Of a stretch of DNA of 29,905 bases, positions 14,683-29,152 are shown piece after piece. The notes beneath the pieces were generated by a model. The model worked only from the letters and a program-made list of their open reading frames with translations, was not told where the DNA came from and did no database searches. How positions within the stretch are numbered: the first letter of the stretch is position 1; each line of letters starts with the position of its first letter. This DNA is from a virus: positions 1 to 29,905 of the IMG/VR virus record IMGVR_UViG_3300010885_032517; one strand, 5' to 3'. The translations under genes were made by a program, and so were the position numbers.

Positions 14683-14980
14683 GTAATTTATTATAGTGGT
14701 CAATTGCGGCTTGAAGTTTAGGAATATCTTCCTTATCCACAAGCACATCATCCCATACCAAATCTGCGCCAAAAATATACTTAAGTGCAGCCCAAACTCG
14801 TTTGTGAAATGGACGATAATTTACAGCCTGAACATTGATAATAAAATCTGGTTTGTAAGGCAAGTTATCGCCCCAATCATACACTTGAATAATAATTGTA
14901 TGATCGGGAGATTGGCATTCACATGAAAGAAATACCTTAAAGTCATCATGCTTTACTGCTATATCTTCAATGTTGCTCAT
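14657..14980 (-). CDS. Conserved phage protein, function unknown
   Basis: 107 residues. FKVFLSCECQSPDHTIIIQV is followed by a tryptophan motif YDWGDN and KRVWAALKYIFGADLVWDDV. This combination recurs, from memory, in many phages as a small unnamed protein. The two cysteines and the Asp-His pair in CECQSPDH could hold a metal but are unproven. The start overlaps the clamp stop by one base, so it is co-transcribed with gene 45. Confidence 0.8.
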   Translation of the reverse strand: MSNIEDIAVKHDDFKVFLSCECQSPDHTIIIQVYDWGDNLPYKPDFIINVQAVNYRPFHKRVWAALKYIFGADLVWDDVLVDKEDIPKLQAAIDHYNKLLDKNKKQD

Positions 14981-15711
14981 TATTTTGTCTTTGCTGGTAG
15001 AAGATATTCATAATTGATAAGACCGCTATCAACTGTAATTTTGGCTACGCCGTCATCACTGAATTGCATTGTCTTATCACCTTGAAGGTTAAGAATTGAC
15101 ATAACCAAACTTACTGGCCATGCCCAACCCTTGGTAAGAGTTCCTGTCACGCCGCTTTGAAATACAAAGTTACCAGCATGAGTAGAAGCATCACCAAAGT
15201 AAAACTTCAAGTCACTGCCTTCTGTCTTTGCAATAAAAGCAGGTTCTTCATTGTTAGCTTGTGCTTGGAATTTAAGACGTTGAATAGCTGCAACTGTTGG
15301 CTCAATTGTAATACCAAAATTGGCACCACGGAAAGTTACAGTCTTCAACTTTTCATTGATAACTTCGGTTGTCATAAAACGATAGTCATTCTTAAAATCA
15401 CCATTTGCATTTTCAAAACGAATACCAACTGGCGTTGACGCACCATTACGAGTTTCACGCTTTAATTCGATTGTGGCATCTTTTGCATATTCTGGAATAT
15501 TAAGAATAGTATTCAACTTTGACAAATTGGGCATACCAAATACGCCTTCAAACTCTGCATTTACTGCATTGAATGTGGCATTAAGAATAAGTGTGCGATC
15601 TTCGCTAACACTTTGAATTTTAGTTTCTTTGTCATCGCCTGAAATTTTGATAACATCAATTTTACCAGTTCCAAGTGTATGATGTACGATATCTGTGAGA
15701 AAGTCTTTCAT
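14980..15711 (-). CDS. 45: DNA polymerase sliding clamp, T4 gp45 type
   Basis: 243 residues (T4 gp45 has 228). The clamp forms a trimeric ring that tethers the polymerase and, in T4, also activates late transcription. The segment NAEFEGVFGMPNLSKLNTIL followed by NIPEYAKDATIEL is a strong signature of the T4-like clamp, and the C-terminus SGLINYEYLLPAKTK fits. It has its own promoter and sits two genes away from DNA polymerase. The clamp-loader genes (44, 62) are not in this window. Confidence 0.93.
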   Translation of the reverse strand: MKDFLTDIVHHTLGTGKIDVIKISGDDKETKIQSVSEDRTLILNATFNAVNAEFEGVFGMPNLSKLNTILNIPEYAKDATIELKRETRNGASTPVGIRFENANGDFKNDYRFMTTEVINEKLKTVTFRGANFGITIEPTVAAIQRLKFQAQANNEEPAFIAKTEGSDLKFYFGDASTHAGNFVFQSGVTGTLTKGWAWPVSLVMSILNLQGDKTMQFSDDGVAKITVDSGLINYEYLLPAKTK

Positions 15712-15759: not shown

Positions 15760-16585
15760 TTATTTCTGCAACACCACCGCCAATTTTATATCGTGGTTGC
15801 AAGTCTCCGCTTTTGCGCCAAACCATATAGCTGCTTTTAAGTGGTTTGATTTCAAAATTTTCTAAAACAAAGCCTATTTTTGTAAGTTCATTTATTACGT
15901 AATTATAATCAATAACACTTAAGTTATTTTCTATATTGGCCTTTTGCGCCCATACTTTATCATTTGGTAGAAAGTTAAAAACCCAAGTTCCGCCATCATA
16001 GAGCAAACCACGCACTTGTTTGCTTATATCAATAATATAATCTTCATTTGCCCCTATAAATTCATTAAAGCAATATACTATACCAAATGATTGTTGCGGC
16101 AATGATGACATATCATTATCTGGTATTTCATATTTTCTTAAACGACGATTAGCATAAAATTCATTATTCAGTGACTTTGCGGCATTAACACAAATATCAT
16201 AATATCTGTCTGCTATATAAAATGGTTCAGCAGATACATTAAATAGTAAAAATTGACCACTACCAGGAAATAATTCTAAAGTTGGAACATTGTTTGCAAT
16301 ATATTTTGATAGTAAACTTGATAAATTTGATATATCATATTCGTTAAAGTTATTAGATTCTATAAAAATTTTACGTGTTTCTAAACTTTGACCTTTTAGT
16401 CTTTTTGCGTTTGTATCAGTATTATCTTTAAGTATTGATAAATCTTTTTGCAAACCAACTTGTAGTTTTACAATAAGATTATCAAATAAATCTGCTACTT
16501 CATTGAAATAAGAAGCAGATTTTCTATAACTTTCCTTTGCATCTTTTAAATTATTAAGATGATTTTGTGTTTCAAAAATATCCAT
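15749..16585 (-). CDS. SAM-dependent methyltransferase-like protein
   Basis: 278 residues. The N-terminal ~95 residues are helical and probably coiled coil. A Rossmann-like methyltransferase core follows: LELFPGSGQFLLF (motif I, about 103-115), IADRYYDI (motif II-like acidic residue) and QVRGLLYDGGTWVFNFLP (about 191-208). The NPPY motif of DNA adenine methyltransferases is not seen, so the target is open. It begins at the last base of the polymerase stop codon and is clearly more AT-rich than the polymerase gene. A non-enzymatic role is possible. Confidence 0.75.
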   Translation of the reverse strand: MDIFETQNHLNNLKDAKESYRKSASYFNEVADLFDNLIVKLQVGLQKDLSILKDNTDTNAKRLKGQSLETRKIFIESNNFNEYDISNLSSLLSKYIANNVPTLELFPGSGQFLLFNVSAEPFYIADRYYDICVNAAKSLNNEFYANRRLRKYEIPDNDMSSLPQQSFGIVYCFNEFIGANEDYIIDISKQVRGLLYDGGTWVFNFLPNDKVWAQKANIENNLSVIDYNYVINELTKIGFVLENFEIKPLKSSYMVWRKSGDLQPRYKIGGGVAEIIDL

Positions 16586-19248
16586 TACTCAAACTCAAAC
16601 AAACTTGTAAATGTATTAGTAATATTGGTTGCGTTAGTAATATCCCAATGCAGCACATCAAGAAGATTTTCTACCTTTTGCGTAACAATAGTATCTTCCA
16701 TAAGGTCTTGGTCAAATGGCATATCCTTAAACCATTGTGGAATGCGTGACTCATCTGTTGGATAACCAATACTGGTTAACCCAAGTGGATTATCTTTTAA
16801 CTTACATACAATAGTCTTCATGCCGTCTACGATCTCAATTGAACGACTATCGCCGTGCATTCTGCGGAGATTATTCCAATTAATTGCTGCACGAACGTGA
16901 CCTGGCATATTTGCCTTGCCTTGCTTCTTTTCTAAATCACCATAGTAGGTAAGTTTGTTAACACGCTTTGGTGTTCCTTTTTCCCAACTTGGTAGATTTT
17001 TAAAAATATATTTAAACTGGCGAACTTCTTCAATAATCTGATCACGGTCTGCGCCATCCAATACTTTCTTCAAGATATCTGCAAGGAAATCTTGAACAAC
17101 CTTTGGTGTATCCGACCGTTTAAGATCAAGTCCCATAGCCTTCATCTTGCCAGTTTTACCTTCTGTATCAAGACGTTTGCCTTCAAGATCATAGATAAGA
17201 ACAGCATAGCGTTTCTTGGTAATAAACAAACCACGAGATGCTACAAGTTCACGACCGCCCTTGATAATAGCACCAAGTTCTGGTGTGATATGGAATGCTT
17301 CATACATGAACTTTGGAAAAGTTAAGTTAACCTGTTCACCAATACTGTCATATAGTTGAACACAGATTTCCTTATTCCATTCCATGCGACCACTCTCAAC
17401 TTCACTTTTGATGGTTGGCCACGCACTAAAGTAAACAGAGTCAGTATCACCATAGATTACGCTTTCGCCAACATGGTCATACTCGCCTGTAATCAGTTGA
17501 TTAACGGTGGCATCCATGTGCTTGGCAATCGTGCGACCACATAGCGTAGTGCTTTGCCCAATACGTTGGTCAAAGAAGCGGCAACCTGCGTTAAGAATAG
17601 CACCATAAAGTGAGTTCAAGTTAATCTTTTTAACCAACTGGCGCTTATCCCAGAATGCAATCTCTTTTGGATCAGTTGCATTTTTCTTATTTGCCTGCAG
17701 TTCTTTACGCTCACTATACCAACGTTCTAACAAACTTGGAATAATACCTTGCTTCTCAAGGTTAAAGATTGTTCCGTTAGCACTTAAAGCCCATGGCGCA
17801 TAGTTATCAAAGATCATATCATAGATTTCAGCAGCACTATAAACTTCGCTGCTACCATCTGTCCAATCAACTGTAATTTCTACTCCAATATCACGGCGCA
17901 TAACTGCTTCGTATTCTAAAGAAGCAAACAGACCTTCCCATGCAGCAGCAATGCTTTTACCTTCATCAAGTTTAGTGGCAAGATGCGCATCTGTCATAAT
18001 AGGACGAAGTTGCCCAACAATAGTTTCTGGACCCATATTAAGCGCACGAATAACTGATGGATACAGTGAGTTAATATCAATAGCACCAATCCAATCATGC
18101 AATCCTTTCTTTGGATATGCAACATAAGCACCAGCAACCTGTGTATTGACTTCTTCTTCACGTGAACGGCGACTTGGAACTACTAACCCACGACGATGCG
18201 CTTCATTGATAATTGCCTGGTCTGTCACTGCAACAGCACCCATTGTAGTCTGCAACAACACGGTATTATCATGCGCAATTTCGTTTGCCAAATCAAGAAA
18301 ACGCAGCTTTTTATCTAATTTGTTTAACAGTGCAACGTCCTGACGAGAATACTGAATAAAGGTTTCAAAGTCACGATTATATAACTGGTCAAGCGAACCT
18401 TCATATGCTGTCTTACGCTCATTCAATTCATATTCACCAATAGCATCAAGGCTATAGGAATGGCGTTCTTCATAGGTATATTTGCGATACAGCACCATAT
18501 AATCAAGATGAACACGACCTACCAAATCATAGGTATAACTGGTCTTACCATATTTTTCATATTCACGTTCTTTAGGAAACTGATCCCATAAACAGAAACG
18601 ACGAGTATCGTCCTTGCTTAATACACGAGTAACACGATTAACAGTATATGGAATATCAAAACCTTCACTGTTCCAACCACTTAATACATCTGCATCATCA
18701 ATAAGTTCAAGAAATGTAAGCAGTAATTCACGTTCACTTTCAAACATAAATGTATTTTCAAATCGTGCGCCAATCTTATTAGCTTCATCCATGCTCATCC
18801 CTTTTGGTGGCATAGCAAGTGTGATAAGTTGGTCAAGCCAATCCAAATAGATTGTTATTGCAGTGATTCTGGTAAACGGGTCATCAGGAGTGCTGTAACC
18901 TTTTTGCGGATCAAAGTCCGTCTCAATATCGAAAAAGGCTGTTTGTAATTGTGGTGAATCTTTACCAAGATAATTTTCAGCGAGACAACGAAAAATTGGG
19001 TTGAGGTCACTTTCAAATATACGTTTACCTTTTTTTACGCCGTTTAATTCACGGCGCATATCTTTATTACTGCGACAACTTACACGACGAACTGGGGTAT
19101 CATAAATGCTGCGATGAGTGCCATTGTCATCTTCATAGTAGAATACATAATTGCAATTGTATTCTGTATAAACACGTTTACCATCTACACGTTCAACAAC
19201 ATGAATGCGTTCTCGTGTTCTGTCATGGATGGCATCAACATAACTCAT
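16585..19248 (-). CDS. 43: Family B DNA polymerase with 3'-5' exonuclease, T4 gp43 type
   Basis: 887 residues (T4 gp43 has 898), complete. Exonuclease motifs: FFDIETDF with D107 and E109, LSGWNSEGFDIPY around 195-210, and YSRQDVALL around 300. Polymerase motifs: DINSLYPSV (region II), KKINLNSLYGAILNAG (region III) and IYGDTDSVYF (region I, with the two catalytic aspartates), then FITKKRYAVLIYD. It is the replicative enzyme and works with the clamp, RNase H and missing partners elsewhere in the genome. A GGGGT ribosome site precedes the ATG. No TTGAC-type promoter was found directly upstream; transcription may come from the 19547 gene. Confidence 0.97.
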   Translation of the reverse strand: MSYVDAIHDRTRERIHVVERVDGKRVYTEYNCNYVFYYEDDNGTHRSIYDTPVRRVSCRSNKDMRRELNGVKKGKRIFESDLNPIFRCLAENYLGKDSPQLQTAFFDIETDFDPQKGYSTPDDPFTRITAITIYLDWLDQLITLAMPPKGMSMDEANKIGARFENTFMFESERELLLTFLELIDDADVLSGWNSEGFDIPYTVNRVTRVLSKDDTRRFCLWDQFPKEREYEKYGKTSYTYDLVGRVHLDYMVLYRKYTYEERHSYSLDAIGEYELNERKTAYEGSLDQLYNRDFETFIQYSRQDVALLNKLDKKLRFLDLANEIAHDNTVLLQTTMGAVAVTDQAIINEAHRRGLVVPSRRSREEEVNTQVAGAYVAYPKKGLHDWIGAIDINSLYPSVIRALNMGPETIVGQLRPIMTDAHLATKLDEGKSIAAAWEGLFASLEYEAVMRRDIGVEITVDWTDGSSEVYSAAEIYDMIFDNYAPWALSANGTIFNLEKQGIIPSLLERWYSERKELQANKKNATDPKEIAFWDKRQLVKKINLNSLYGAILNAGCRFFDQRIGQSTTLCGRTIAKHMDATVNQLITGEYDHVGESVIYGDTDSVYFSAWPTIKSEVESGRMEWNKEICVQLYDSIGEQVNLTFPKFMYEAFHITPELGAIIKGGRELVASRGLFITKKRYAVLIYDLEGKRLDTEGKTGKMKAMGLDLKRSDTPKVVQDFLADILKKVLDGADRDQIIEEVRQFKYIFKNLPSWEKGTPKRVNKLTYYGDLEKKQGKANMPGHVRAAINWNNLRRMHGDSRSIEIVDGMKTIVCKLKDNPLGLTSIGYPTDESRIPQWFKDMPFDQDLMEDTIVTQKVENLLDVLHWDITNATNITNTFTSLFEFE

Positions 19249-21112: not shown

Positions 21113-22270
21113 TCAATAACTTCTTTCAAGTTCACAAGTTATGCAGTGTAAATTTCCTTCTAAAAACTGTGCATGGGACCATTCCACGTATATCGCCTCA
21201 ATGCCTACATTTTTTAAATCATCATAGAATTTTTTATCATAAAAATTGCATAATGTTTTTGTTGGAGATATAGGAAGACAATTTGCTTCTCTTCGATCCA
21301 AATCAAAAATAGGTTTCCATTTTTCTACCCACAACGTTGGGTTATATTTGTCATTAGTCCAAAATTCAGTTGGTAAGTTTAATCGCCATTCGGCAGTTGG
21401 CAAATATATAATGTTTTTAACATCTTGAAAATAATATTCAATTTTTGGATTATTTTCTAAAAATCTCATAGGATTTATTAATATGGTGTCATTATTTAAA
21501 AATACTGCAGAAGCATCAATATGTCCAGCTTTTGGAATATATATTGGTGTAACATTAAGATAGTTTAACCATTTTTCAAACCATAAATGACCTACAGTTT
21601 TTTTTCCATATGATGCAATATATGCTTTATCATTTCGTTTTAAAACATAAGCGCCGTGAAATAATATTTTATCTGAATATTGAATATTGTGAGTTTTAAA
21701 CCAATCCCATGCAGCATTTTTAGCAAAAAAATTTTCATGTGTTTTTAAAATGTTTTTTACATGTTTATAATTTTTTGGGTAATTTCTAAATCCCGTAAGT
21801 TTAAAAAATTCATTATAATCAACTAATGCTTTTTCATCCATTATTCCACCATCTAAATTTAATTCTGGTGAATTTACTAATAAATTATTGTTTTCAGAAT
21901 TGATAAGGTTTTTGTAGATATCTTCCATCCAAAGATGAGTGAATCTTCTTTCGGGATAGGGAATATAAGAAGAGAAAAATATATTACCATAAGTTATATA
22001 TTGATCACGCATATTCAATGCTGAATCATGAAATATGTTTTCTTCTGAATTGTAATTTTTTGGTTGTTTTGGTCTATGAACCTTTACATTATGTTCTTCG
22101 AGAATTTTTTGTATATTGGTGAGTTCTAAATTACTATCTTCAATAATTTTAACAAAATTTTCTTGGTCTTTTCCTTCATATCTTTTGGGAATTTTATCAT
22201 TTTCAAAGACAGACCCTAAAATCACTGATTTTAGTGGATCAAAATCATTCCAACAATGTAATTTAGTCAT
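21113..22270 (-). CDS. Amidinotransferase-like protein (glycine/inosamine amidinotransferase family)
   Basis: 385 residues, full length for the family, whose members move the amidino group of arginine to an amine. Matches to human AGAT from memory: WNDFDPLKSVILG at the start, NMRDQYITYGN with D89 (AGAT MPRDILIVVGN, D170), HIDASAVF with H250 (AGAT HIDATFN, H303), and GNLHCITCELER with C376 (AGAT GGFHCWTCDVRR, C407). The region equivalent to FDAADF with D254 reads FHGAYV, so one catalytic acid seems missing and the reaction may differ. There is no signal peptide. The gene is very AT-rich and sits among probable head proteins, overlapping the start of the next by one base. Confidence 0.85.
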   Translation of the reverse strand: MTKLHCWNDFDPLKSVILGSVFENDKIPKRYEGKDQENFVKIIEDSNLELTNIQKILEEHNVKVHRPKQPKNYNSEENIFHDSALNMRDQYITYGNIFFSSYIPYPERRFTHLWMEDIYKNLINSENNNLLVNSPELNLDGGIMDEKALVDYNEFFKLTGFRNYPKNYKHVKNILKTHENFFAKNAAWDWFKTHNIQYSDKILFHGAYVLKRNDKAYIASYGKKTVGHLWFEKWLNYLNVTPIYIPKAGHIDASAVFLNNDTILINPMRFLENNPKIEYYFQDVKNIIYLPTAEWRLNLPTEFWTNDKYNPTLWVEKWKPIFDLDRREANCLPISPTKTLCNFYDKKFYDDLKNVGIEAIYVEWSHAQFLEGNLHCITCELERSY

Positions 22271-22623
22271 TATACACTTTTTGGTCTATTTCTGCGAACA
22301 TGCTTTAATTTAGCAGCAAATGCATCTGGCGTCAATTTATATTTTGCAATGAATGCATTATGCAAATCTTTAGGATCAATTTGGAAAGCCATTGATATAC
22401 TGCGCATTAGATCATCTATACTATTATAATCAATTTGTTCAAGATCATCTAATTGGCTTGCAAGACGTGCAACCGCACCAATCATATTCTTGCCTTCTAC
22501 ACCTTTTACAATGGTGTCATACTTCCAACGTGCAGCCATGAGACCACGTGCACCCGCACTTATAGGATTGCGCCCTTGGATTGTAGTACTCATTGCTGCT
22601 TCGAGGATTTCTTTTATTTTCAT
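22270..22623 (-). CDS. Small helical protein with capsid-targeting-like N-terminus
   Basis: 117 residues. The N-terminus MKIKEILEAAMSTTIQGRNP resembles T4 capsid-targeting peptides, with a possible gp21-type cleavage after ILE at residue 8. The remainder is basic and helical, with GARGLMAARWKYDTIVKGVE and a Lys/Arg-rich end KLKHVRRNRPKSV. Such a protein could be packaged into the prohead and bind DNA (inference). It starts one base after the stop of the DctP-like gene and overlaps the amidinotransferase gene by one base. Confidence 0.78.
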   Translation of the reverse strand: MKIKEILEAAMSTTIQGRNPISAGARGLMAARWKYDTIVKGVEGKNMIGAVARLASQLDDLEQIDYNSIDDLMRSISMAFQIDPKDLHNAFIAKYKLTPDAFAAKLKHVRRNRPKSV

Positions 22624-22624
22624 A

Positions 22625-23572
22625 TTAAGCTGCTATAATTTTCTTTAAAACAACGGGTGAAAATATATTTTTAACCAAATCTGATTTATAAATTTCAGAT
22701 GTTAAATCTTTAAATTTTTGTATTTCTGAATCTGATAACTGAAAAAATCCTTCACAGCGATTTTTTGCATCTAATTCAAAATTTTTGCTATCTTCAATAG
22801 TTTCTGTTCTTTCTAACAAAGCTGTTTTTTTAGCAGCATTTTTAAACAGAATCTTATCTTCCTCACTTAGCGTATTCCAAAAAATTTCAGAAATTACAAT
22901 TGTAGTTAAAAATAAACTGTGCTTTGTATTAGTAATAAAAGGAGTCTTTTCTTTTACCTTATCAAAACGCACAAGGGTTGTTTCACCACCATCAAAATCA
23001 ATATCAGGATTATTGTTAAAGTGAGTGGATAAATCATCACCTTCTTTGTCTAATACAGTAATGCCTTCTAGTAAATCATACATTTTTTGGGTTATTGGAC
23101 TTTCGCTTATGCTTAAAATTTTATTTTTAATATCAGTTAATGTCTTGATTGGTTTAGAACTTACCATAATTCTAAATCCACCACTATACGTAAATGCCAA
23201 TCCTCGCATACCAGTATTTTTTCCAAGCAATTCTAGTAAATTTTCACCAATAGAGCCATCTAACACTTTTCTAGCATGTTCATGATCTCTGAAAAGAAAA
23301 GGTAAATCAAACAAATGAAAGTTTTTATATTTTGAACCAATTGCAGTGGTTTGAAATTGACCCATCTGAATTTCGTTCTTTATGATTGCTCTCATAAAAC
23401 CATATTTTTTTATATCAAACTGATTGCAAAATTCTTCTTTGGTTAAAATGTTGATTTTGATTCTATTATCAGATTCAGATTCAATGATTTCTTTAAAAGT
23501 TTTTACAGAACGCAAATAAAGTTCTAGGGGTTCATGTGCAACGACCCAAGTAAGATTAATTTCTTCTGACAT
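22625..23572 (-). CDS. TRAP-transporter DctP-like solute-binding protein without signal peptide
   Basis: 315 residues, the length of mature TRAP solute-binding proteins, which capture organic acids in the periplasm. Family features: FHLFDLPFLFRDHEHARKVL (about 85-104), GMRGLAFTYSGGFRIMVSSK (about 121-140), PIKTLTDIKNKILSI (141-155), and later ISEIFWNTLSEEDKILFKNA. The usual signal peptide is absent: the protein begins MSEEINLTWVVAHEPLEL, directly in the first strand of the fold. No TRAP membrane subunits are nearby. In a phage it may bind a small molecule in the cytoplasm or virion (inference). An AATAAATA box stands 20 bases before the ATG. The gene is AT-rich. Confidence 0.82.
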   Translation of the reverse strand: MSEEINLTWVVAHEPLELYLRSVKTFKEIIESESDNRIKINILTKEEFCNQFDIKKYGFMRAIIKNEIQMGQFQTTAIGSKYKNFHLFDLPFLFRDHEHARKVLDGSIGENLLELLGKNTGMRGLAFTYSGGFRIMVSSKPIKTLTDIKNKILSISESPITQKMYDLLEGITVLDKEGDDLSTHFNNNPDIDFDGGETTLVRFDKVKEKTPFITNTKHSLFLTTIVISEIFWNTLSEEDKILFKNAAKKTALLERTETIEDSKNFELDAKNRCEGFFQLSDSEIQKFKDLTSEIYKSDLVKNIFSPVVLKKIIAA

Positions 23573-23592
23573 GTAAATTCCTTTGTTTAATA

Positions 23593-23600
23593 TATTTATT
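23593..23600 (-). promoter_or_regulatory. T4-late-like promoter box AATAAATA
   Basis: AATAAATA reads toward the 23572 start, ending 20 bases before it. Seven of eight bases match T4 late TATAAATA. AAAGGAAT lies between as ribosome site. Confidence 0.45.
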
Positions 23601-23601
23601 A

Positions 23602-23811
23602 TTAAACTTTGCCGCTAGGGTCCATAATAGGTGGTAGACCTAACTTGTTGGTTTTATTACCAAATTTAGCGGCTTGACGCTGTGTTTCACCTGGTTTTAC
23701 ATCAACTGTCATGCTGTTGGAATAACGTGGGTCACGTGCCATCTTCTTATTACCAGCAACTACACCTACACCACCAGCTTCTACAAGATCAAATAATTCA
23801 GTCAATAACAT
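23602..23811 (-). CDS. Short probable internal head protein with capsid-targeting-like N-terminus
   Basis: 69 residues. MLLTELFDLVEAGG at the start is close to the opening of T4 Alt as I remember it (MELITELFDED), an internal head protein, with a possible cleavage after LVE at residue 11. The rest (AGNKKMARDPRYSNSMTVDV, then PGETQRQAAKFGNK) resembles a short segment found in marine phage proteins, from memory. It follows the 24482 gene after 5 bases. Confidence 0.75.
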   Translation of the reverse strand: MLLTELFDLVEAGGVGVVAGNKKMARDPRYSNSMTVDVKPGETQRQAAKFGNKTNKLGLPPIMDPSGKV

Positions 23812-23816
23812 TCAGT

Positions 23817-24482
23817 TCACCACTTACGGCAAGACCAGTATCTTGCCTTCGTGCGTGGACCTGGATTTGCACAATTGTGTCTTGCACGGAAACTTTTACG
23901 ACGTTTTGGATTACTCTTCTTGATACGCATGTTAGGATCACCAAAGTTGACTTTCTTTACGTTACCAGTCTTTGGGTCTTTAACGAATACTTTAAACTTC
24001 TTTACATCGCCACGCATTGGCTTACCGAGTGGAACCTTACGGCCATGATATTCTGCTTCATAAAGATCATCCATAAAGAAACGAATTTCTTTGTCACCTT
24101 TGTTAAGAACAACATCATCATCGTCTTCTGCAATATCCCAACCCATGTTGCTTAACATTTTTACAGCTTGTGCATGCTTGCCTTCATCACCATGCCACCA
24201 CATCTTTGCCAAACGTTTTAGAGTTTGGTGGTTATCTTGCATGGAAACTACTTCACCTTCTGCAATCTTACGAGCGGGACGACTTTCAATTTCGTTTAAA
24301 CTTTCAAGAACTGCGAATAGTTTCTCATCGCCAAGTATAGTAATACTATCACCACTCATTTCCATGATCTCGGTATCTACTTGTAGAATGTTACCAAACT
24401 CCAAATATACACCATCACCAATACTTGGACGGTCTTCGCTTATTGCGGTAAGTTTTTCAATTAAAGAACGCATATCACTCAT
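23817..24482 (-). CDS. Probable internal head protein with basic Cys-containing C-terminal module
   Basis: 221 residues. The N-terminal MSDMRSLIEKLTAISED has a possible gp21-type site after ISE at residue 16. A central part has HQTLKRLAKMWWHGDEGKHA. The end, LGKPMRGDVKKFKVFVKDPK followed by SNPKRRKSFRARHNC and KARYWSCRKW, is a strongly basic module that I remember as a frequent C-terminus of marine phage proteins. Two cysteines and a histidine in it could bind zinc. I infer a packaged DNA-associated protein. AATAAATA stands 19 bases before the ATG, with CAGGAT as ribosome site. Confidence 0.83.
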   Translation of the reverse strand: MSDMRSLIEKLTAISEDRPSIGDGVYLEFGNILQVDTEIMEMSGDSITILGDEKLFAVLESLNEIESRPARKIAEGEVVSMQDNHQTLKRLAKMWWHGDEGKHAQAVKMLSNMGWDIAEDDDDVVLNKGDKEIRFFMDDLYEAEYHGRKVPLGKPMRGDVKKFKVFVKDPKTGNVKKVNFGDPNMRIKKSNPKRRKSFRARHNCANPGPRTKARYWSCRKW

Positions 24483-24501
24483 GTTATAAATCCTGATATA
24501 T

Positions 24502-24509
24502 TATTTATT
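24502..24509 (-). promoter_or_regulatory. T4-late-like promoter box AATAAATA
   Basis: AATAAATA reads toward the 24482 start with 19 bases between. It overlaps the stop codon of the upstream gene. Confidence 0.45.
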
Positions 24510-25455
24510 TTGCTTTGGTGCTTACACGAATTGGTGCTTTGCCGCTACCACCAGTATCTTTACCACCACGACCTGCGGCATTTTGTGCTTTGCGTTTACG
24601 AGTAACTGCACTTTTCTTTTCCGATGCACTCATACTACGGGCTTTTGCCGCTGGCACACATTTAGCATAACCACTCTTGCTACCGCTGGTGCCGCATGGT
24701 GGATGTTTGCCACCAACTTTTTTGCCAATATTAACCCACTTGTCTTTGAACCACTTGTGTAGATTGCCACTGGCTTCTGGTAGCATTAAATTGCCACAGT
24801 GCATGCAATAATCAACTTGTTCAAGCAACACACTCTCTGTAATTGGATCACACTTGATTTCTGTGCTTTCTAAGGTCATTTCCATAGCGATTTTTTTCTT
24901 ATATACGTATAGTTTGTAACCTGAAGCATCATCGCTAAAAATCTTTTTCTGTTGGACTGGATCAGTTACAGCCTTAAAACCCATCTGCTCAAAGAATTTT
25001 GCTGCCCTATCATATAACTTGATTCTGCTTGGTTCGTTTGATTTTGCACCCATGACAATTACTTCGGTTTTAGGATGTCTTGCAATAAAGTGATTCAAAC
25101 AATAGGCAACGCCATTGAATATTTTAAAAACAGTATCTCTTTCAGTGCCAGTTACAGCATGGGTATCAGGTCTGCTCTGCGTTTTATTTTCAAATGCCAA
25201 TACATAATAATTTTCATTATATTCTTTAAATGTGACTTCAATTTTGGTTTTACTAACGGTGAAATCATAATCAGCACCGTAATTATCTGCATACACATCA
25301 AAATTTTCTGGCGCTTTGTTTACGTCGATAAATTCTTCAATTTCTTCGCTTTCGTTCTTGACACAGTTTGGATATTTCTTTCCAAACATTGTTTTCATAC
25401 CTTCTTTATGATAGCCTTTCCAACATGCCTCGCCAAGAACATCTTCCATCTTCAT
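24505..25455 (-). CDS. Probable internal head protein: CTS-like start, zinc-knuckle-like motif, basic tail
   Basis: 316 residues. The N-terminus MKMEDVLGEACWKGYHKEGM has a possible prohead-protease site after LGE at residue 9, then a module with KGY, GMKTMFGKKYPNC seen in other marine phage proteins. The centre (about 55-200) could be an acetyltransferase-like fold, judged weakly from VYADNYGADYDF and AAKFFEQMGFKAVTD. CMHCGNLMLPE at about 217-227 is a CxxC pair shared with the 26674 gene. The end, HKWFKDKWVNIGKKVGG followed by GYAKCVPAAKARSMSASEKK and RKRKAQ, resembles the DUF5872-type tail as I remember it. It overlaps the upstream stop by ATGA. Confidence 0.82.
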   Translation of the reverse strand: MKMEDVLGEACWKGYHKEGMKTMFGKKYPNCVKNESEEIEEFIDVNKAPENFDVYADNYGADYDFTVSKTKIEVTFKEYNENYYVLAFENKTQSRPDTHAVTGTERDTVFKIFNGVAYCLNHFIARHPKTEVIVMGAKSNEPSRIKLYDRAAKFFEQMGFKAVTDPVQQKKIFSDDASGYKLYVYKKKIAMEMTLESTEIKCDPITESVLLEQVDYCMHCGNLMLPEASGNLHKWFKDKWVNIGKKVGGKHPPCGTSGSKSGYAKCVPAAKARSMSASEKKSAVTRKRKAQNAAGRGGKDTGGSGKAPIRVSTKAK

Positions 25456-25853
25456 GACTTGACTAAATCCTTAATTGCTTTCACATGGTTATCCATGATG
25501 TAACTATGTTCATCATATAAATCCATCATGCTTGCCTTATTCATAATTTGCTCGCCAAGAACTTCTGCCATAGTTGCAAATTCTGGTTCAATGCTGCCAC
25601 GTTGTGTGGCATATTTTTCCAGATAAAAAAGTAAATCTTGCATTTTAGCAGTGCGCTCTGCTATACCCATATCAACATTTTTTTCTTCAATATTTTTGTA
25701 AAGTTTTGTTGCACTTGGACACATATCAAAATGGCGTGTTTGATATTTGCCTACTTTAACTTCGCCACTATCTTTGGTTTCATCTTTTGATTCTTCACCA
25801 AGTATGATAGCATCCATCTTATTGATGAAATATCGTAAATCCATGTCGCTCAT
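25452..25853 (-). CDS. Small helical protein with possible capsid-targeting N-terminus
   Basis: 133 residues. The start MSDMDLRYFINKMDAIILGE has an [I/L]-x-E site (LGE) at residue 20. The rest is helical: YQTRHFDMCPSATKLYKNIE and RTAKMQDLLFYLEKYA, a pattern I remember from unnamed phage proteins opening with HFDICPxA. It has 4-base ATGA overlaps with the genes on both sides and shares MSDM with the 24482 protein. Confidence 0.78.
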   Translation of the reverse strand: MSDMDLRYFINKMDAIILGEESKDETKDSGEVKVGKYQTRHFDMCPSATKLYKNIEEKNVDMGIAERTAKMQDLLFYLEKYATQRGSIEPEFATMAEVLGEQIMNKASMMDLYDEHSYIMDNHVKAIKDLVKS

Positions 25854-26674
25854 TTAGATTTATTTCCCCAATTTTTTGCGCCAGCTTTACGGCATTTTAC
25901 TAGCGCACCGCTTGCATATGCACTAGGCCATACTTTATAACGACTTTTTACTTTATAGTAACAAGCATCTTTCTTTTCATTCATAAGACTTGCTTCATAC
26001 ATCAGTCCACCACAATGAGGGCAACTTTCTTCAACTGCTTCTAATTCATCCGTTGTATCACCAGTAACAGGATATGTTCTGCCACCAACATTAAATGATT
26101 TTTTACCTGCCTTTATAGCATTCATTCTTGCATCAGTGAAAGCATTGGACTCTTCCATGTCATCATGTGCGGCACTGCCAACGATTTCATTGTAATTGTC
26201 CATGCAAAGATAATCATGATGCTTGGATAATTCAATCATCTTTTGAGCAACATCATGCAAGTCTAAATCAGTTTTGGCATCTTCACGAGCATATTCCATC
26301 ATACGAAGCAGTAGCGGAATATCCATACTAACTGTATCAGTCGCATCTGCTTCCATGACACTTTCATCATGCTTTGGCTTTTTACCACGCTTTTTCATAT
26401 TGATAGCAATAGCAGCTTGTTGTGCTGGACTGCTTGCTTCTTGAATTGTTTCTACGCTTTCTTGTGGTAAAACTTTTGGTTTTTTTATAGCACTGCCTGG
26501 TATTAATTTGTCCATTGCAAGTTCAACACCTGCACGTTGCTTTTTAGTTTTTCCAACAGGATTACCCTTCATTAAATTAGGATTACGTGAAAGTCTTTTG
26601 TTAACAAATGACTTAATTGTATTAGTGCGAAGTTCTTCTAAATCTGTTTCAACAATGATATCATTAATACGCAT
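25850..26674 (-). CDS. Probable internal head protein with CTS-like start and conserved basic C-terminus
   Basis: 274 residues from the ATG at 26674; GTG codons upstream overlap the previous gene. MRINDIIVETDLEE has a possible cleavage after IVE at residue 9. Later segments are modular: NAFTDARMNAIKAGKKSFNV followed by GGRTYPVTGDTTDE, the CPHCGGLMYE CxxC motif, and the end DACYYKVKSRYKVWPSAYAS, GALVKCRKAGAKNWGNKSK. From memory the last module is one of the commonest protein C-termini in marine phages and occurs on many different proteins. The function is unknown; DNA binding in the capsid is inferred. Confidence 0.83.
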   Translation of the reverse strand: MRINDIIVETDLEELRTNTIKSFVNKRLSRNPNLMKGNPVGKTKKQRAGVELAMDKLIPGSAIKKPKVLPQESVETIQEASSPAQQAAIAINMKKRGKKPKHDESVMEADATDTVSMDIPLLLRMMEYAREDAKTDLDLHDVAQKMIELSKHHDYLCMDNYNEIVGSAAHDDMEESNAFTDARMNAIKAGKKSFNVGGRTYPVTGDTTDELEAVEESCPHCGGLMYEASLMNEKKDACYYKVKSRYKVWPSAYASGALVKCRKAGAKNWGNKSK

Positions 26675-26675
26675 A

Positions 26676-27566
26676 TTAATCACCACCTACCATTTTATTA
26701 CCTGGTGGTCCACGATCTGTGCCTTTCCAGTAACCAGTAAACTTTGGACCAGTTTGCCCTTTTGCTTCGGTTTTTCTTTTTTTCTTTTTTGGAGAATAAG
26801 TTCCGCCAAATAATGAACCAACTTGATTACGACTTAACATACCCATGCCACCAACAGCACCCGCAATACCACCTGCGCTACTTGCACCAGCACTTGCACT
26901 TTCACCAATTACATGAAACCCTGCTTGTTGTTTACTTTTAACTTGTGCCTGTGGAACCATAACAGGAACACCTTGCACATTACCGTTAGTATCAACCTTT
27001 GCCATTTTTACCATGCCAGGTGTTTGTGTCATGCCAGGTGGTTTACCAGGTCCACCAGTTTTTGGTTGATTTGGATTCTGCGGAGTTGTTTGCATAGTAG
27101 TATCTGCTTCGTGCATTTCACTTGGATAACGCATTTCATAATCAAGATAGTCAAACACTGACTCGATATAATCAGCAGCACGTGTTAGCTTGCGTTGAAC
27201 CCAACCTTCAAGACCTTGATTTTCACCAACATCTTTTAACATTTCATGTAACATAATAGCAAGTTTTGCAGTACGGTATAGTTCTTGACGGGCCATCTGA
27301 ACTTCATGATCTGGATACTGATTGTATGTTTGTGGCATCATTTGACCGTTTGGCTGTTCTTGACCAACAATTTCACAATCACATTCTTCAAGACTTTTAA
27401 CTGTTTCTGGTAGTTTAATCATATAACGACCAGTAGGCAGTTTCCATACAGTTCCATTGAAACGTTGAGTAAGTTTGTCTGCTTCATCGTAATTTACGAT
27501 TACTGGCTTGCCATTTTTAGCAAGAATTTTACCATAAACATAGGTATCTTTTATCTCATATTCCAT
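26676..27566 (-). CDS. Modular virion-type phage protein, function unknown
   Basis: 296 residues. A beta-rich start (VYGKILAKNGKPVIVNYDEA) is followed by a helical segment ARQELYRTAKLAIMLHEMLK and GLEGWVQRKLTRAADYIESV, about 90-140, which resembles a module of many marine phage proteins from memory. A Pro/Thr/Gly-rich linker (about 155-190) leads to a Gly/Ala-rich stretch and a basic end with SPKKKKRKTEAKGQTGPKF and KGTDRGPPGNKMVGGD. No capsid-targeting N-terminus is seen, unlike the next genes. A perfect TATAAATA box stands 18 bases before the ATG, with AGAGGAAAT as ribosome site. Confidence 0.82.
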   Translation of the reverse strand: MEYEIKDTYVYGKILAKNGKPVIVNYDEADKLTQRFNGTVWKLPTGRYMIKLPETVKSLEECDCEIVGQEQPNGQMMPQTYNQYPDHEVQMARQELYRTAKLAIMLHEMLKDVGENQGLEGWVQRKLTRAADYIESVFDYLDYEMRYPSEMHEADTTMQTTPQNPNQPKTGGPGKPPGMTQTPGMVKMAKVDTNGNVQGVPVMVPQAQVKSKQQAGFHVIGESASAGASSAGGIAGAVGGMGMLSRNQVGSLFGGTYSPKKKKRKTEAKGQTGPKFTGYWKGTDRGPPGNKMVGGD

Positions 27567-27584
27567 TGGAAATTTCCTCTGTAT

Positions 27585-27592
27585 TATTTATA
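27585..27592 (-). promoter_or_regulatory. Perfect T4-late-type promoter box TATAAATA
   Basis: TATAAATA reads toward the 27566 start, 18 bases before it, and overlaps the upstream stop codon. It is the best match in the window to the T4 late consensus. Confidence 0.55.
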
Positions 27593-27902
27593 AATTCTCA
27601 ATTTTAAAATTTAATCCTTTAAATTTAATGCGATCTGCTTTAATGTTAAATGGCGTTTCATCTATTAAGATTTTTTTATATAATGATTTTTTGTGTTTAC
27701 AATTAGTAAACAATAATTTTGTATCTTGATAATCTGGTATTTGCAAATAAAAAGTATCAACCATCGCTTGGTTTGGTTTTAGTATTGGCAATGATCTTTC
27801 ACTTATAAGTTGATCTTGGAAATAAATTCTATAAGCTATTTCTTCTTCGCCATAATCATAGTCTTCGGGAACTATTACTAATTGAAATTTATATTCATTC
27901 AT
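27588..27902 (-). CDS. Small protein, function unknown
   Basis: 104 residues, AT-rich gene, beta-strand rich (YKFQLVIVPEDYDYGEEEIA, YRIYFQDQLISERSLPIL, KILIDETPFNIKADRIKF). Acidic start, basic end. No family recognised. The ATG overlaps the upstream stop by one base. Confidence 0.72.
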   Translation of the reverse strand: MNEYKFQLVIVPEDYDYGEEEIAYRIYFQDQLISERSLPILKPNQAMVDTFYLQIPDYQDTKLLFTNCKHKKSLYKKILIDETPFNIKADRIKFKGLNFKIENL

Positions 27903-28171
27903 TATAAAACCTGTTGCAAGCCTTTTAGTAATTTATCTTGGTGCAACTTGGCGGTTTTACTTTTACTTTTTTTAATTTTTTGAATTTTTGCGTGAAAGCG
28001 GCGTAAATCGCTGCGAGTGAGTTTTTTATTTTTCTTTGAAAGAAAATTTATTGCTTGACTTTTTATATTAGTTGATTGTATTTCTAAATTACTGTTTATT
28101 TGATACTCTTCCCAAAGTTGAACAATTTGATCCCATTGTTCTTGGGTGAGAGATGTATTTTCGTCAAGCAT
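27902..28171 (-). CDS. Small basic helical protein, function unknown
   Basis: 89 residues from the ATG at 28171, chosen because GAGGAGAG stands 5 bases upstream; longer in-frame extension runs through the HAD gene on the same strand. The C-terminal half is very basic (LSKKNKKLTRSDLRRFHAKI, QKIKKSKSKTAKLHQDKLL), suggesting contact with nucleic acid. The first half is acidic, with SLTQEQWDQIVQLWEEYQ. Confidence 0.75.
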   Translation of the reverse strand: MLDENTSLTQEQWDQIVQLWEEYQINSNLEIQSTNIKSQAINFLSKKNKKLTRSDLRRFHAKIQKIKKSKSKTAKLHQDKLLKGLQQVL

Positions 28172-28184
28172 TGTACTCTCCTCA

Positions 28185-28697
28185 TTAATTATATCTCCCC
28201 AATTTTGCATAACTGGAGAGTTCTTTTGCAACTTTTCCATATTCACTGTCATCATACTTGATGCCAATACCGCCAGCACTGCGCCAGCTTGCCACATTCT
28301 TGCCATAATCATCTACAAGAATACAAGGATTGCCACCAAGTGTAGCAAACATTGATTTATTGTGTGTAAGTTCAATGTGACGTGGTGGCATATCAGCAAA
28401 ATGCATGTTTACCCAAGCTACCTTGCCTGGTTCACTGCGTGTATCACCTGTAAGCGGTGTGCTACAAATATGATAACTGCCAAACTCTTTAATAACGTGC
28501 GCAACCAATTGTCGTGCATGTGGAAGTAACGGTAGGTCAACCCAAAATGTGGGATGATCCCTAACAAGTTGAAGTTTTGCCTCTGGATTGTCTATATCTT
28601 TATAATGGTCTTTGCCATCAAGTCTTGCCCATTGACCAAAAAAGTCAGCGAGAACTCCATCCATATCAAGGTAAACTCGGAACTTTTGGTATGCCAT
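28185..28697 (-). CDS. HAD-family 5'(3')-deoxyribonucleotidase-like phosphatase
   Basis: 170 residues. HAD motif I is DMDGVLADF with D11 and D13, motif II is the T in HICSTPLTGD, and motif IV is ILVDDYGKNVASW followed by GGIGIKYDD. Length and motifs match the NT5C family, which dephosphorylates dNMPs; in phages such enzymes are thought to adjust nucleotide pools. The N-terminal strand FRVYLDMDG also fits. It has a sigma70-type promoter 32 bases upstream. A GATAAATA sequence lies only 4 bases before the ATG and is probably not a promoter. Confidence 0.88.
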   Translation of the reverse strand: MAYQKFRVYLDMDGVLADFFGQWARLDGKDHYKDIDNPEAKLQLVRDHPTFWVDLPLLPHARQLVAHVIKEFGSYHICSTPLTGDTRSEPGKVAWVNMHFADMPPRHIELTHNKSMFATLGGNPCILVDDYGKNVASWRSAGGIGIKYDDSEYGKVAKELSSYAKLGRYN

Positions 28698-28728
28698 GTG
28701 ATATTTATCCCTTTTTAGACCCTGTTTT

Positions 28729-28756
28729 ATTGTATCACAGACTGTGGATAAGTCAA
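28729..28756 (-). promoter_or_regulatory. Sigma70-type promoter for the nucleotidase gene
   Basis: TTGACT at 28756-28751, 16-base spacer, TACAAT at 28734-28729. It is the only promoter of this class I found in the right third of the window. Confidence 0.65.
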
Positions 28757-28759
28757 GCC

Positions 28760-29152
28760 CTAAATGAAGAATACGGTTTGGTCAGCACCATAGCGGAAAC
28801 TGTTGGGATATGCGGTGGCTAAACGATACATTTGGCTACCATCTGGACGTTCACGCTTCTGTATAGCCAAACCCATGCCACCTTCACGGCGTTTAATGAT
28901 AAAATTAGTATCGGTAATAGCAGTAATTTTTGAACCATAATTACGCACAGCATCGCTTATCATAGCAACAACATCAGCATAACTTACGCTACGTTCGGTT
29001 TCACGCTCACCATAGTGTTTGCTTAAAATCAAATCACCATCTGGAAATGCATTGCGATAAATGTGTATGCCACCATGCGGATTATGCGGACGATAATTCG
29101 GAACAGCATTTACGGGATCAATTGCTTCAATGGTAAACTCGTGCGCTCTCAT
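28760..29152 (-). CDS. Protein with T4 internal-protein-like N-terminus, function unknown
   Basis: 130 residues from the ATG at 29152, which overlaps the upstream stop (ATGA). The opening MRAHEFTIEAIDPVN strongly recalls the T4 internal protein start MKTYQEFIAEA. The cleavage context is less exact here (TIE rather than [I/L]-x-E). The rest is compact, with GGIHIYRNAFPDGDLILSKH and a C-terminal RREGGMGLAIQKRERPDGSQ followed by FRYGADQTVFFI. No catalytic motif is recognised. Possibly a packaged protein. Confidence 0.78.
   Translation of the reverse strand: MRAHEFTIEAIDPVNAVPNYRPHNPHGGIHIYRNAFPDGDLILSKHYGERETERSVSYADVVAMISDAVRNYGSKITAITDTNFIIKRREGGMGLAIQKRERPDGSQMYRLATAYPNSFRYGADQTVFFI

Follow-up and report, generated by a model that had tools for sequence, protein, structure and literature searches.

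A candidate cargo locus with putative T4-type capsid targeting peptides, next to the polymerase gene of a T4-like jumbo phage

The stretch of DNA analyzed here, the window, is the full 29,905-base IMG/VR record IMGVR_UViG_3300010885_032517 from a T4-like phage. In our view, its segment 22270-29152 is likely to be where this jumbo phage keeps its cargo genes. Genes 22270, 25850 and 28760 (named by their left coordinates), with 24505 and 23602 as probable and 23817 as possible further cases, would start with a capsid targeting peptide, or tag, of the type found in the T4 internal proteins (IP) IPII and IPIII and in Alt. Proteins so tagged would then probably be carried inside the virion together with the DNA. 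In the proposed course, the peptide would bind the prohead core, the tagged protein would become enclosed in the head, and cleavage behind [I/L/V]-x-E by a gp21-type (S77) protease would release a protein, basic in most cases, that would remain with the DNA and be ejected alongside it at infection.

The mechanism is known from T4, and the breadth of tagged enzymes seems to be new. According to excerpts of PMC9026906, T4 uses targeting peptides with L/I-x-E, of which the first ten residues are sufficient; close T4 relatives have basic proteins with similar peptides, which may allow T4-like phages to load various proteins. Among proteins of isolates, the best matches to the window polymerase, at about 46% identity, come from jumbo myophages, examples being Phosso, a Sinorhizobium phage, and Atu_ph07, an Agrobacterium phage with 131 proteins on its virion list (Atu_ph07 is covered in excerpts of PMC6102473, and phage MIJ3 in excerpts of PMC6892783).

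N-terminal peptides in the window

All seven open reading frames (ORFs) singled out in the initial annotation are present on the - strand with the N-termini given there, and identical starts were picked by a simple gene caller trained jointly on the window and G001, a close relative of 338 kb whose DNA polymerase is 91.9% identical to that of the window. (G numbers denote contigs or genomes, L numbers loci; gene calls close to piece ends are unreliable, those of CBB_236 and CBB_276 among them.) As had been claimed, [LI]-x-E lies within 20 residues of the start in six of the seven, the exception being 28760, where MRAHEFTIEA offers T-I-E and the strict site is lacking. The mature parts are indeed often basic, with a predicted isoelectric point (pI) of 8.6-10.2 in six and 5.1 in 25452. 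They are also largely unrelated, as had been proposed, except that short basic C-terminal segments are common to some of them and to one another's relatives.

The peptides were scored with a position-specific scoring matrix (PSSM) made from 24 seeds out of six contigs (G003-G007 and G010), none from T4. T4, phage CBB, G009, G001 and the window were held out of seeding, G001 and the window being closely related to each other. Counts in the six seed contigs are circular because the seeds were drawn there. In T4, IPII and IPIII rank first and second of 269 genes, a recovery that is not fully blind because the seed pattern was written with T4 IP sequences in mind. In the window, 28760, 25850 and 22270 rank first to third of 47 genes (16.6, 13.8 and 11.8 bits), and the fourth gene scores 5.2. 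A score of at least 10 is thus reached by 3/47 window genes with about 0 expected, by 8/406 genes of G001 with 0.07-0.22 expected, and by none of 555 CBB genes or 264 G009 genes. At a threshold of 8, the window has 0/34 genes left of 21.1 kb vs 3/11 cluster genes (p = 0.012). The seven genes are as follows, with a slash marking the predicted cut.

22270..22623, - strand: 117 amino acids (aa); MKIKEILE/A, IP-like targeting peptide; predicted mature part of pI 9.8, helical; PSSM 11.8
23602..23811, - strand: 69 aa; MLLTELFDLVE/A, like T4 MELITELFDED; close homologues with LVE, LNE or LDE/A; PSSM -7.7
23817..24482, - strand: 221 aa; long N-terminal peptide MSDMRSLIEKLTAISE/D; basic C-terminal domain at about 138-221 (phrog_7595); PSSM -5.0
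24505..25455, - strand: 316 aa; MKMEDVLGE/A; CWKGYHKEG segment; DUF6934 domain; PSSM -3.9
25452..25853, - strand: 133 aa, acidic; N-terminus MSDMDLRYFINKMDAIILGEE; near-identical homologues only; PSSM -17.9; the weakest case
25850..26674, - strand: 274 aa; MRINDIIVE/T, IP-like targeting peptide; PSSM 13.8
28760..29152, - strand: 130 aa; MRAHEFTIE/A, IP-like targeting peptide; PSSM 16.6, the highest in the window

From these sequences and those of their relatives, the candidate targeting peptides of 22270, 25850 and 28760 make strong cases and those of 24505 and 23602 good ones, through homologues. Neither of the other two is matched by the PSSM; the peptide of 23817 is a plausible candidate and that of 25452 a weak one.

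In a test that presumes no motif, proteins without homology to each other were paired genome by genome, their residues 2-13 were compared against 100 column permutations, and pairs scoring at least 26 were counted. Such pairs numbered 8 in G001 (null mean 2.1, maximum 6), 12 in G003 (2.1, 6), 16 in G004 (2.1, 5) and 5 in T4 (1.0, 4); G007 had 2 (0.5, 3), which is not above null. The null was also exceeded in CBB and in G005, G006, G009 and G010, the clusters of these last four being mostly other peptides. Clusters of the tag-like peptide contained eight genes in G001 and eight in G004, with one off-pattern member each, and three in G003, and T4's IPI, IPII and IPIII form a cluster of their own. 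Since Sec-like signal peptides also cluster, the method detects real N-terminal signals. As to T4 names, ipI and ipIII follow the record and gp21 an S77 match; the remaining T4 names, like the place where T4 gp23 is cut, are presumed. A 54-aa T4 ORF at 18966-19130 (L195; MKTFKEFIKEDMVAG) has the third highest PSSM score of the 269 genes and may be a further internal protein.

The putative cleavage site is conserved among homologues, which retain [I/L/V]-x-E with a variable middle residue. Across the 22270 family, an alignment of 12 members shows E5, I6, E8 and A9 to be invariant, and one member with an inserted residue keeps I-S-E/A. A 28760 homologue of 28% identity retains M1, R2, E5, F6 and E9; a search for 28760 relatives in viral contigs confirmed none. 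Homologues of 25850 start with MKITDIILEA, MKIKDIIFEA or MRIKDVILEA, and those of 24505 place MRYREILEA or MKYKEILEA ahead of the CWKGYHKEG segment. Counted over distinct N-termini of homologues, in sets that overlap and are not mutually independent, [LIV]-x-E occurs in 18/20 for 22270, 19/29 for 23602, 64/77 for 23817, 53/65 for 24505, 42/64 for 25850, 2/2 for 25452 and 1/1 for 28760, the background being 1591/4579.

The bodies behind such peptides vary. PSSM scores of at least 8 are reached by 287 proteins in 47 body groups, the largest with 160 members; a few of these starts, e.g., MNERIRELAEQ, resemble chance or other signals. The basic C-terminal domain of 23817 is found behind many different peptides, and DUF6267 proteins have starts that are IP-like (MFINQILTEA, MKVTQVLSEA) or Alt-like (MLLNELFGIREA), with no clear one in the G004 and G005 members. 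A pattern for the long MSDM-type peptide matches 13/6238 proteins, six of them from one family, with 0.7 expected from body positions, and we build no claim on this count. In G009, four otherwise dissimilar proteins (48067, 55041, 133908 and 138721) have a common N-terminus such as MKISKDKLKRIIKEEL, possibly a different targeting peptide.

T4 IPI, IPII and IPIII likewise have an N-terminal peptide of about 10 residues (MKTYQEFIAEA vs MRAxEF[IL]xE) ending in [LI]-x-E and followed by basic bodies, whereas here the peptide is one residue shorter and the bodies, compared by family searches only, are more numerous and of other kinds, with enzymes in relatives. MELITELFDED, which begins the T4 ORF at 123454 that we take to be Alt (an ADP-ribosyltransferase), resembles MLLTELFDLVEA, but window 23602 has only 69 aa and no family match.

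Prohead protease and gene neighborhood

The protease that the proposed course calls for is found in relatives. The S77 prohead protease (PF03420) is matched above the cut-off in 9/11 large relatives including G001, and in 0/14 control genomes. The presumed T4 gp23 site FLTE/A aligns with YLAE/S in G001 and with L-x-E in G003, G005, G006, G007, G010 and CBB, while the G004 and G009 rows do not reach the site. The genes that we read as gp21, gp22 and gp23 in G001 (gp22 by position and eye) also begin with such sites.

Isolates with the phrog_7595 domain of 23817 form a small sample, nine hand-picked from 25 hits and reduced to eight because the Melnitz-3 N-terminus lies outside the stretch. In all three that have the S77 protease, the domain is preceded by an N-terminal extension (23, 44 and 85 residues). 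The phrog_7595 proteins of pelagiphages and roseophages share this domain, but in 4/5 readable isolates without S77 protease the protein starts at the bare domain; in the fifth, Roseobacter phage CRP-6, the protein carries a short leader and, C-terminally, an additional part. In this CRP-6 protein (L392:889-1578) the second part fused to the 23817-type domain looks prohead-protease-like by eye.

Inner-body and ejection proteins of phiKZ and SPN3US are similar in that head proteins are cleaved by the prohead protease and some are ejected, according to excerpts of PMC9026906 and to abstracts on SPN3US, but the phiKZ cleavage motif is S/A-x-E. An inner body is also described for phAPEC6, a relative of phage 121Q, in excerpts of PMC7247149.

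Some tagged genes are no more than about 10 kb away from gp43 in the window and in G001, G003, G004, G005, G006 and G007, these six being all the contigs with a polymerase match among G001-G010 (CBB aside; G009 and G010 gave no match in the search). Tagged genes adjoin one another significantly often in G003, G004, G007 and G010.

Virion proteomes and competing explanations

Several results weigh against packaged cargo. By the condition set in the initial annotation, an equal frequency of the motif at N-termini of replication genes would refute the reading, and on this point loose [LI]-x-E fails in the window, with 13/34 genes left of 21.1 kb vs 6/11 in 22270-29152 (Fisher p = 0.27). Over ten genomes it occurs at 18-28% of N-termini, compared with 13-19% for positions within the body, so that every genome shows a modest excess (p from 0.037 to 2e-5). 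PSSM scores are below zero for four of the seven genes (23602, 23817, 24505 and 25452). Adjacency of tagged genes is not significant in G001, G005 and G006, PF03420 finds no match in the window, which is a 29.9-kb fragment only, and a clear IP-like start appears in only one of the three phrog_7595 extensions (Kyanoviridae phage C48C1, MKKFKQYIDE/G). Packaging in this phage is proposed from sequence.

Virion proteomes of two isolates were compared as well. For CBB, with 55 virion proteins listed by mass spectrometry (MS) in excerpts of PMC5259590, the IP-like pattern matches 0/55 listed proteins vs 11/500 others, and neither the loose motif (12/55 vs 116/500) nor a refined motif (8/55 vs 51/500, p = 0.22) is enriched. 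For phage PA5oct, no significance is reached by the loose motif (19/87 MS proteins vs 77/357 of the rest), the IP-like pattern (5 vs 11, p = 0.19) or a PSSM score of at least 5 (2 vs 4, p = 0.33). The loose motif, discriminating neither in the window nor in CBB or PA5oct, was dropped as a criterion.

On the other side, the refined motif, chosen post hoc, occurs in 14 MS proteins of PA5oct vs 25 of the rest (p = 0.0095), and CBB_214 (MSNLRKLMESIDDIYEA), whose peptide is like the long one of 23817, is in the CBB MS table with one peptide. PA5oct MS status was taken from the record note ‘ESI-MS/MS’ only, and starts were as annotated for MS genes but from our own gene calls for the rest; of 89 typed entries, 87 could be assigned to a gene call, and four genes that bear the MS note but cross 50-kb pieces were excluded. 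The note also stands on the ribonucleotide reductase and thymidylate synthase of PA5oct, so carry-over from cells is possible. The MS of the two isolates is mixed, neither proving packaging nor excluding it.

Two side observations concern these proteomes. Nine MS-listed CBB proteins (CBB_144, 247, 536, 537, 548, 549 and 551-553; L187, L189, L192, L193) have the common start MLPF..(.)(.).(Y)(A/G)N, perhaps an attachment segment and not a cleaved tag. In PA5oct (MK797984), the adjacent trio EST35_0380-0382 (L384:10677-12300) has the tag-like starts MRLNEINLIETS, MKILEFNLTEKAS and MKLSEICILESS, the first two marked ESI-MS/MS.

One alternative is that these are no more than usual short amphipathic N-termini, rich enough in acidic and hydrophobic residues for [LI]-x-E to be frequent by chance. 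The spread of the loose motif through non-cluster window genes and all ten genomes, and the four genes unmatched by the PSSM, are what this would lead one to expect; however, in T4, G001 and the window the PSSM gives more than either control (permuted columns or body positions), and within families the Glu and mostly the Ala are conserved while the middle residue is free. We regard chance starts as quite unlikely. It is unlikely, too, that the propeptides are real but belong to structural parts of the assembly core or capsid, kept in the head or degraded rather than delivered. The sites at the starts of putative G001 gp21, gp22 and gp23 would suit such parts, and short basic bodies would fit a DNA-bound inner body, but the bodies are varied and include enzyme domains. 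A third alternative, in which the peptide is a docking tag for another phage complex, such as the replisome or a membrane complex, could account for the location next to gp43 that the window shares with six relatives. This we hold to be very improbable, as tagged genes also occur far from gp43 (G001 20660, 60006 and 297068) and the two best-matching T4 proteins are internal head proteins.

For capsid targeting of diverse cargo, as the initial annotation had it, there remain the recovery of IPII and IPIII, the conserved triplet, the varied bodies and the S77 protease in relatives. What does not stand, besides the loose-motif test, is an equal footing of the seven genes: 25452 is weak, 23817 has a different and longer type of peptide, and 23602 and 24505 are supported through homologues.

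Enzyme bodies in relatives and neighboring genes

We tentatively suggest, at a little under even chances, that in T4-like jumbo phages one exchangeable head-loading tag brings a broad and changing enzyme kit into the cell along with the DNA. The kit would comprise amidoligases, deoxynucleotidases, nucleotidyltransferases, helix-turn-helix (HTH) proteins and, probably, superoxide dismutase (SOD) against entry oxidative stress and gamma-glutamyl cyclotransferase, plus one protein whose Tat signal would be bared by trimming, for re-export by the host. If true, effectors delivered by the virion could be predicted through the tag, given nothing but sequence. Many genes of large phages have no assigned role, and with such an N-terminal signature the delivered effectors could be read off from genomes; it would also connect the small IP system of T4 with enzyme delivery on a larger scale. 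No account of enzyme cargo behind such tags was found in excerpts of the literature on capsid targeting sequences, internal proteins and phage SODs, and ‘superoxide’ was not found in those of PMC7824862 and PMC13282480.

Pfam was run on 30 chosen proteins, namely 29 with tag-like starts and window 22625, of which 10 gave no family. All 29 match the permissive pattern S, and 21 reach a PSSM score of 8. Above the curated cut-offs are the Fe/Mn SOD C-terminal domain, Amidoligase_2, CTP_transf_like (L138), NT5C (L027), DUF6267, GP88, HTH families and a GGACT domain (3.1e-14, from residue 17); below them are HAD, ASCH, SprT-like and DUF6934 (L135, L267). Those scoring below 8 despite the pattern are the SOD (3.1), gamma-glutamyl cyclotransferase (6.9), the G001 DUF6267 protein (7.5), L138, L087 and L267, and a pair from G005; for these, the case for a tag depends on the pattern and on conservation. 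G001 has two further GGCT-like paralogues without a tag.

The SOD, with its conserved metal ligands behind an L-x-E/A leader, is a concrete test case. It occurs in many viral contigs (L297-L376 and L259:16616-17158) but is absent from the window. PF02777 is matched at 8.2e-23, the N-terminal domain PF00081 falls just under its cut-off, and the protein aligns with Fe-SODs. Among the best 80 of 222 relatives, which are closely related, L373 was dropped as a partial match, and 76/79 have the full 180 residues. In these 76, Glu9 never changes, L or I stands at P3 and V, L or I at P2, and P1' is Ala in 75. H41, H70, D146 and H150, presumably the metal ligands by alignment, are invariant in 76/76. 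Position 1 is Met in 30/76, so the starts lie upstream in the remainder. The PA5oct homologue has I-A-E/A at residues 11-14 and is annotated ESI-MS/MS.

The Tat candidate is a tagged G001 protein (G001:C1:297068-297964, or L182:17068-17964; MRISEIIVE/APTDVSRRGFLKGLASIAAST), with a Tat signal at residues 13-33 (7e-4, below cut-off) directly after the predicted cut. Cleavage after Glu9 would place the Tat-type signal near the new N-terminus.

The targeting peptide is absent from 4/11 called genes in the interval (22625, 26676, 27588 and 28185). Neighbors of interest are listed here.

14980-15711: sliding clamp by eye; sole match phrog_12062, of unknown function
16585..19248, - strand: gp43-type DNA polymerase (phrog_262), adjoining the tagged cluster
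22625..23572, - strand: DctP-type periplasmic solute-binding protein within the cluster (PF03480, E 2.8e-32), without targeting peptide
28185..28697, - strand: deoxyribonucleotidase-like (phrog_2643), without targeting peptide in the window

Some relatives of 28185 are tagged, with MRAYQFLTEE or MRAHQFVDEE (L027, PSSM 16.4). Gene 22625 starts with MSEEINLTWVV and has no obvious signal peptide. An eighth candidate, the basic ORF 27902-28210 (MQNWGDIINEES), was rejected, its start being common only to G001 among the 15 homologue rows listed. An RNase-like fold guessed by eye for 28760 was likewise unsupported; neither of the two models made (pLDDT 63 and 70) gave a PDB match at E<=0.001. The one of 22270 has pLDDT 70, with values below 50 at residues 1-21 and 23-27. 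The basic tail of 24505 has a weak likeness to DUF5872, below cut-off. Lastly, window 29149-29892 matches the C-terminal end of far longer proteins, of 1608 and 1632 aa, in L087 and L092 (Amidoligase_2 in L087), and may therefore be a split-off part.

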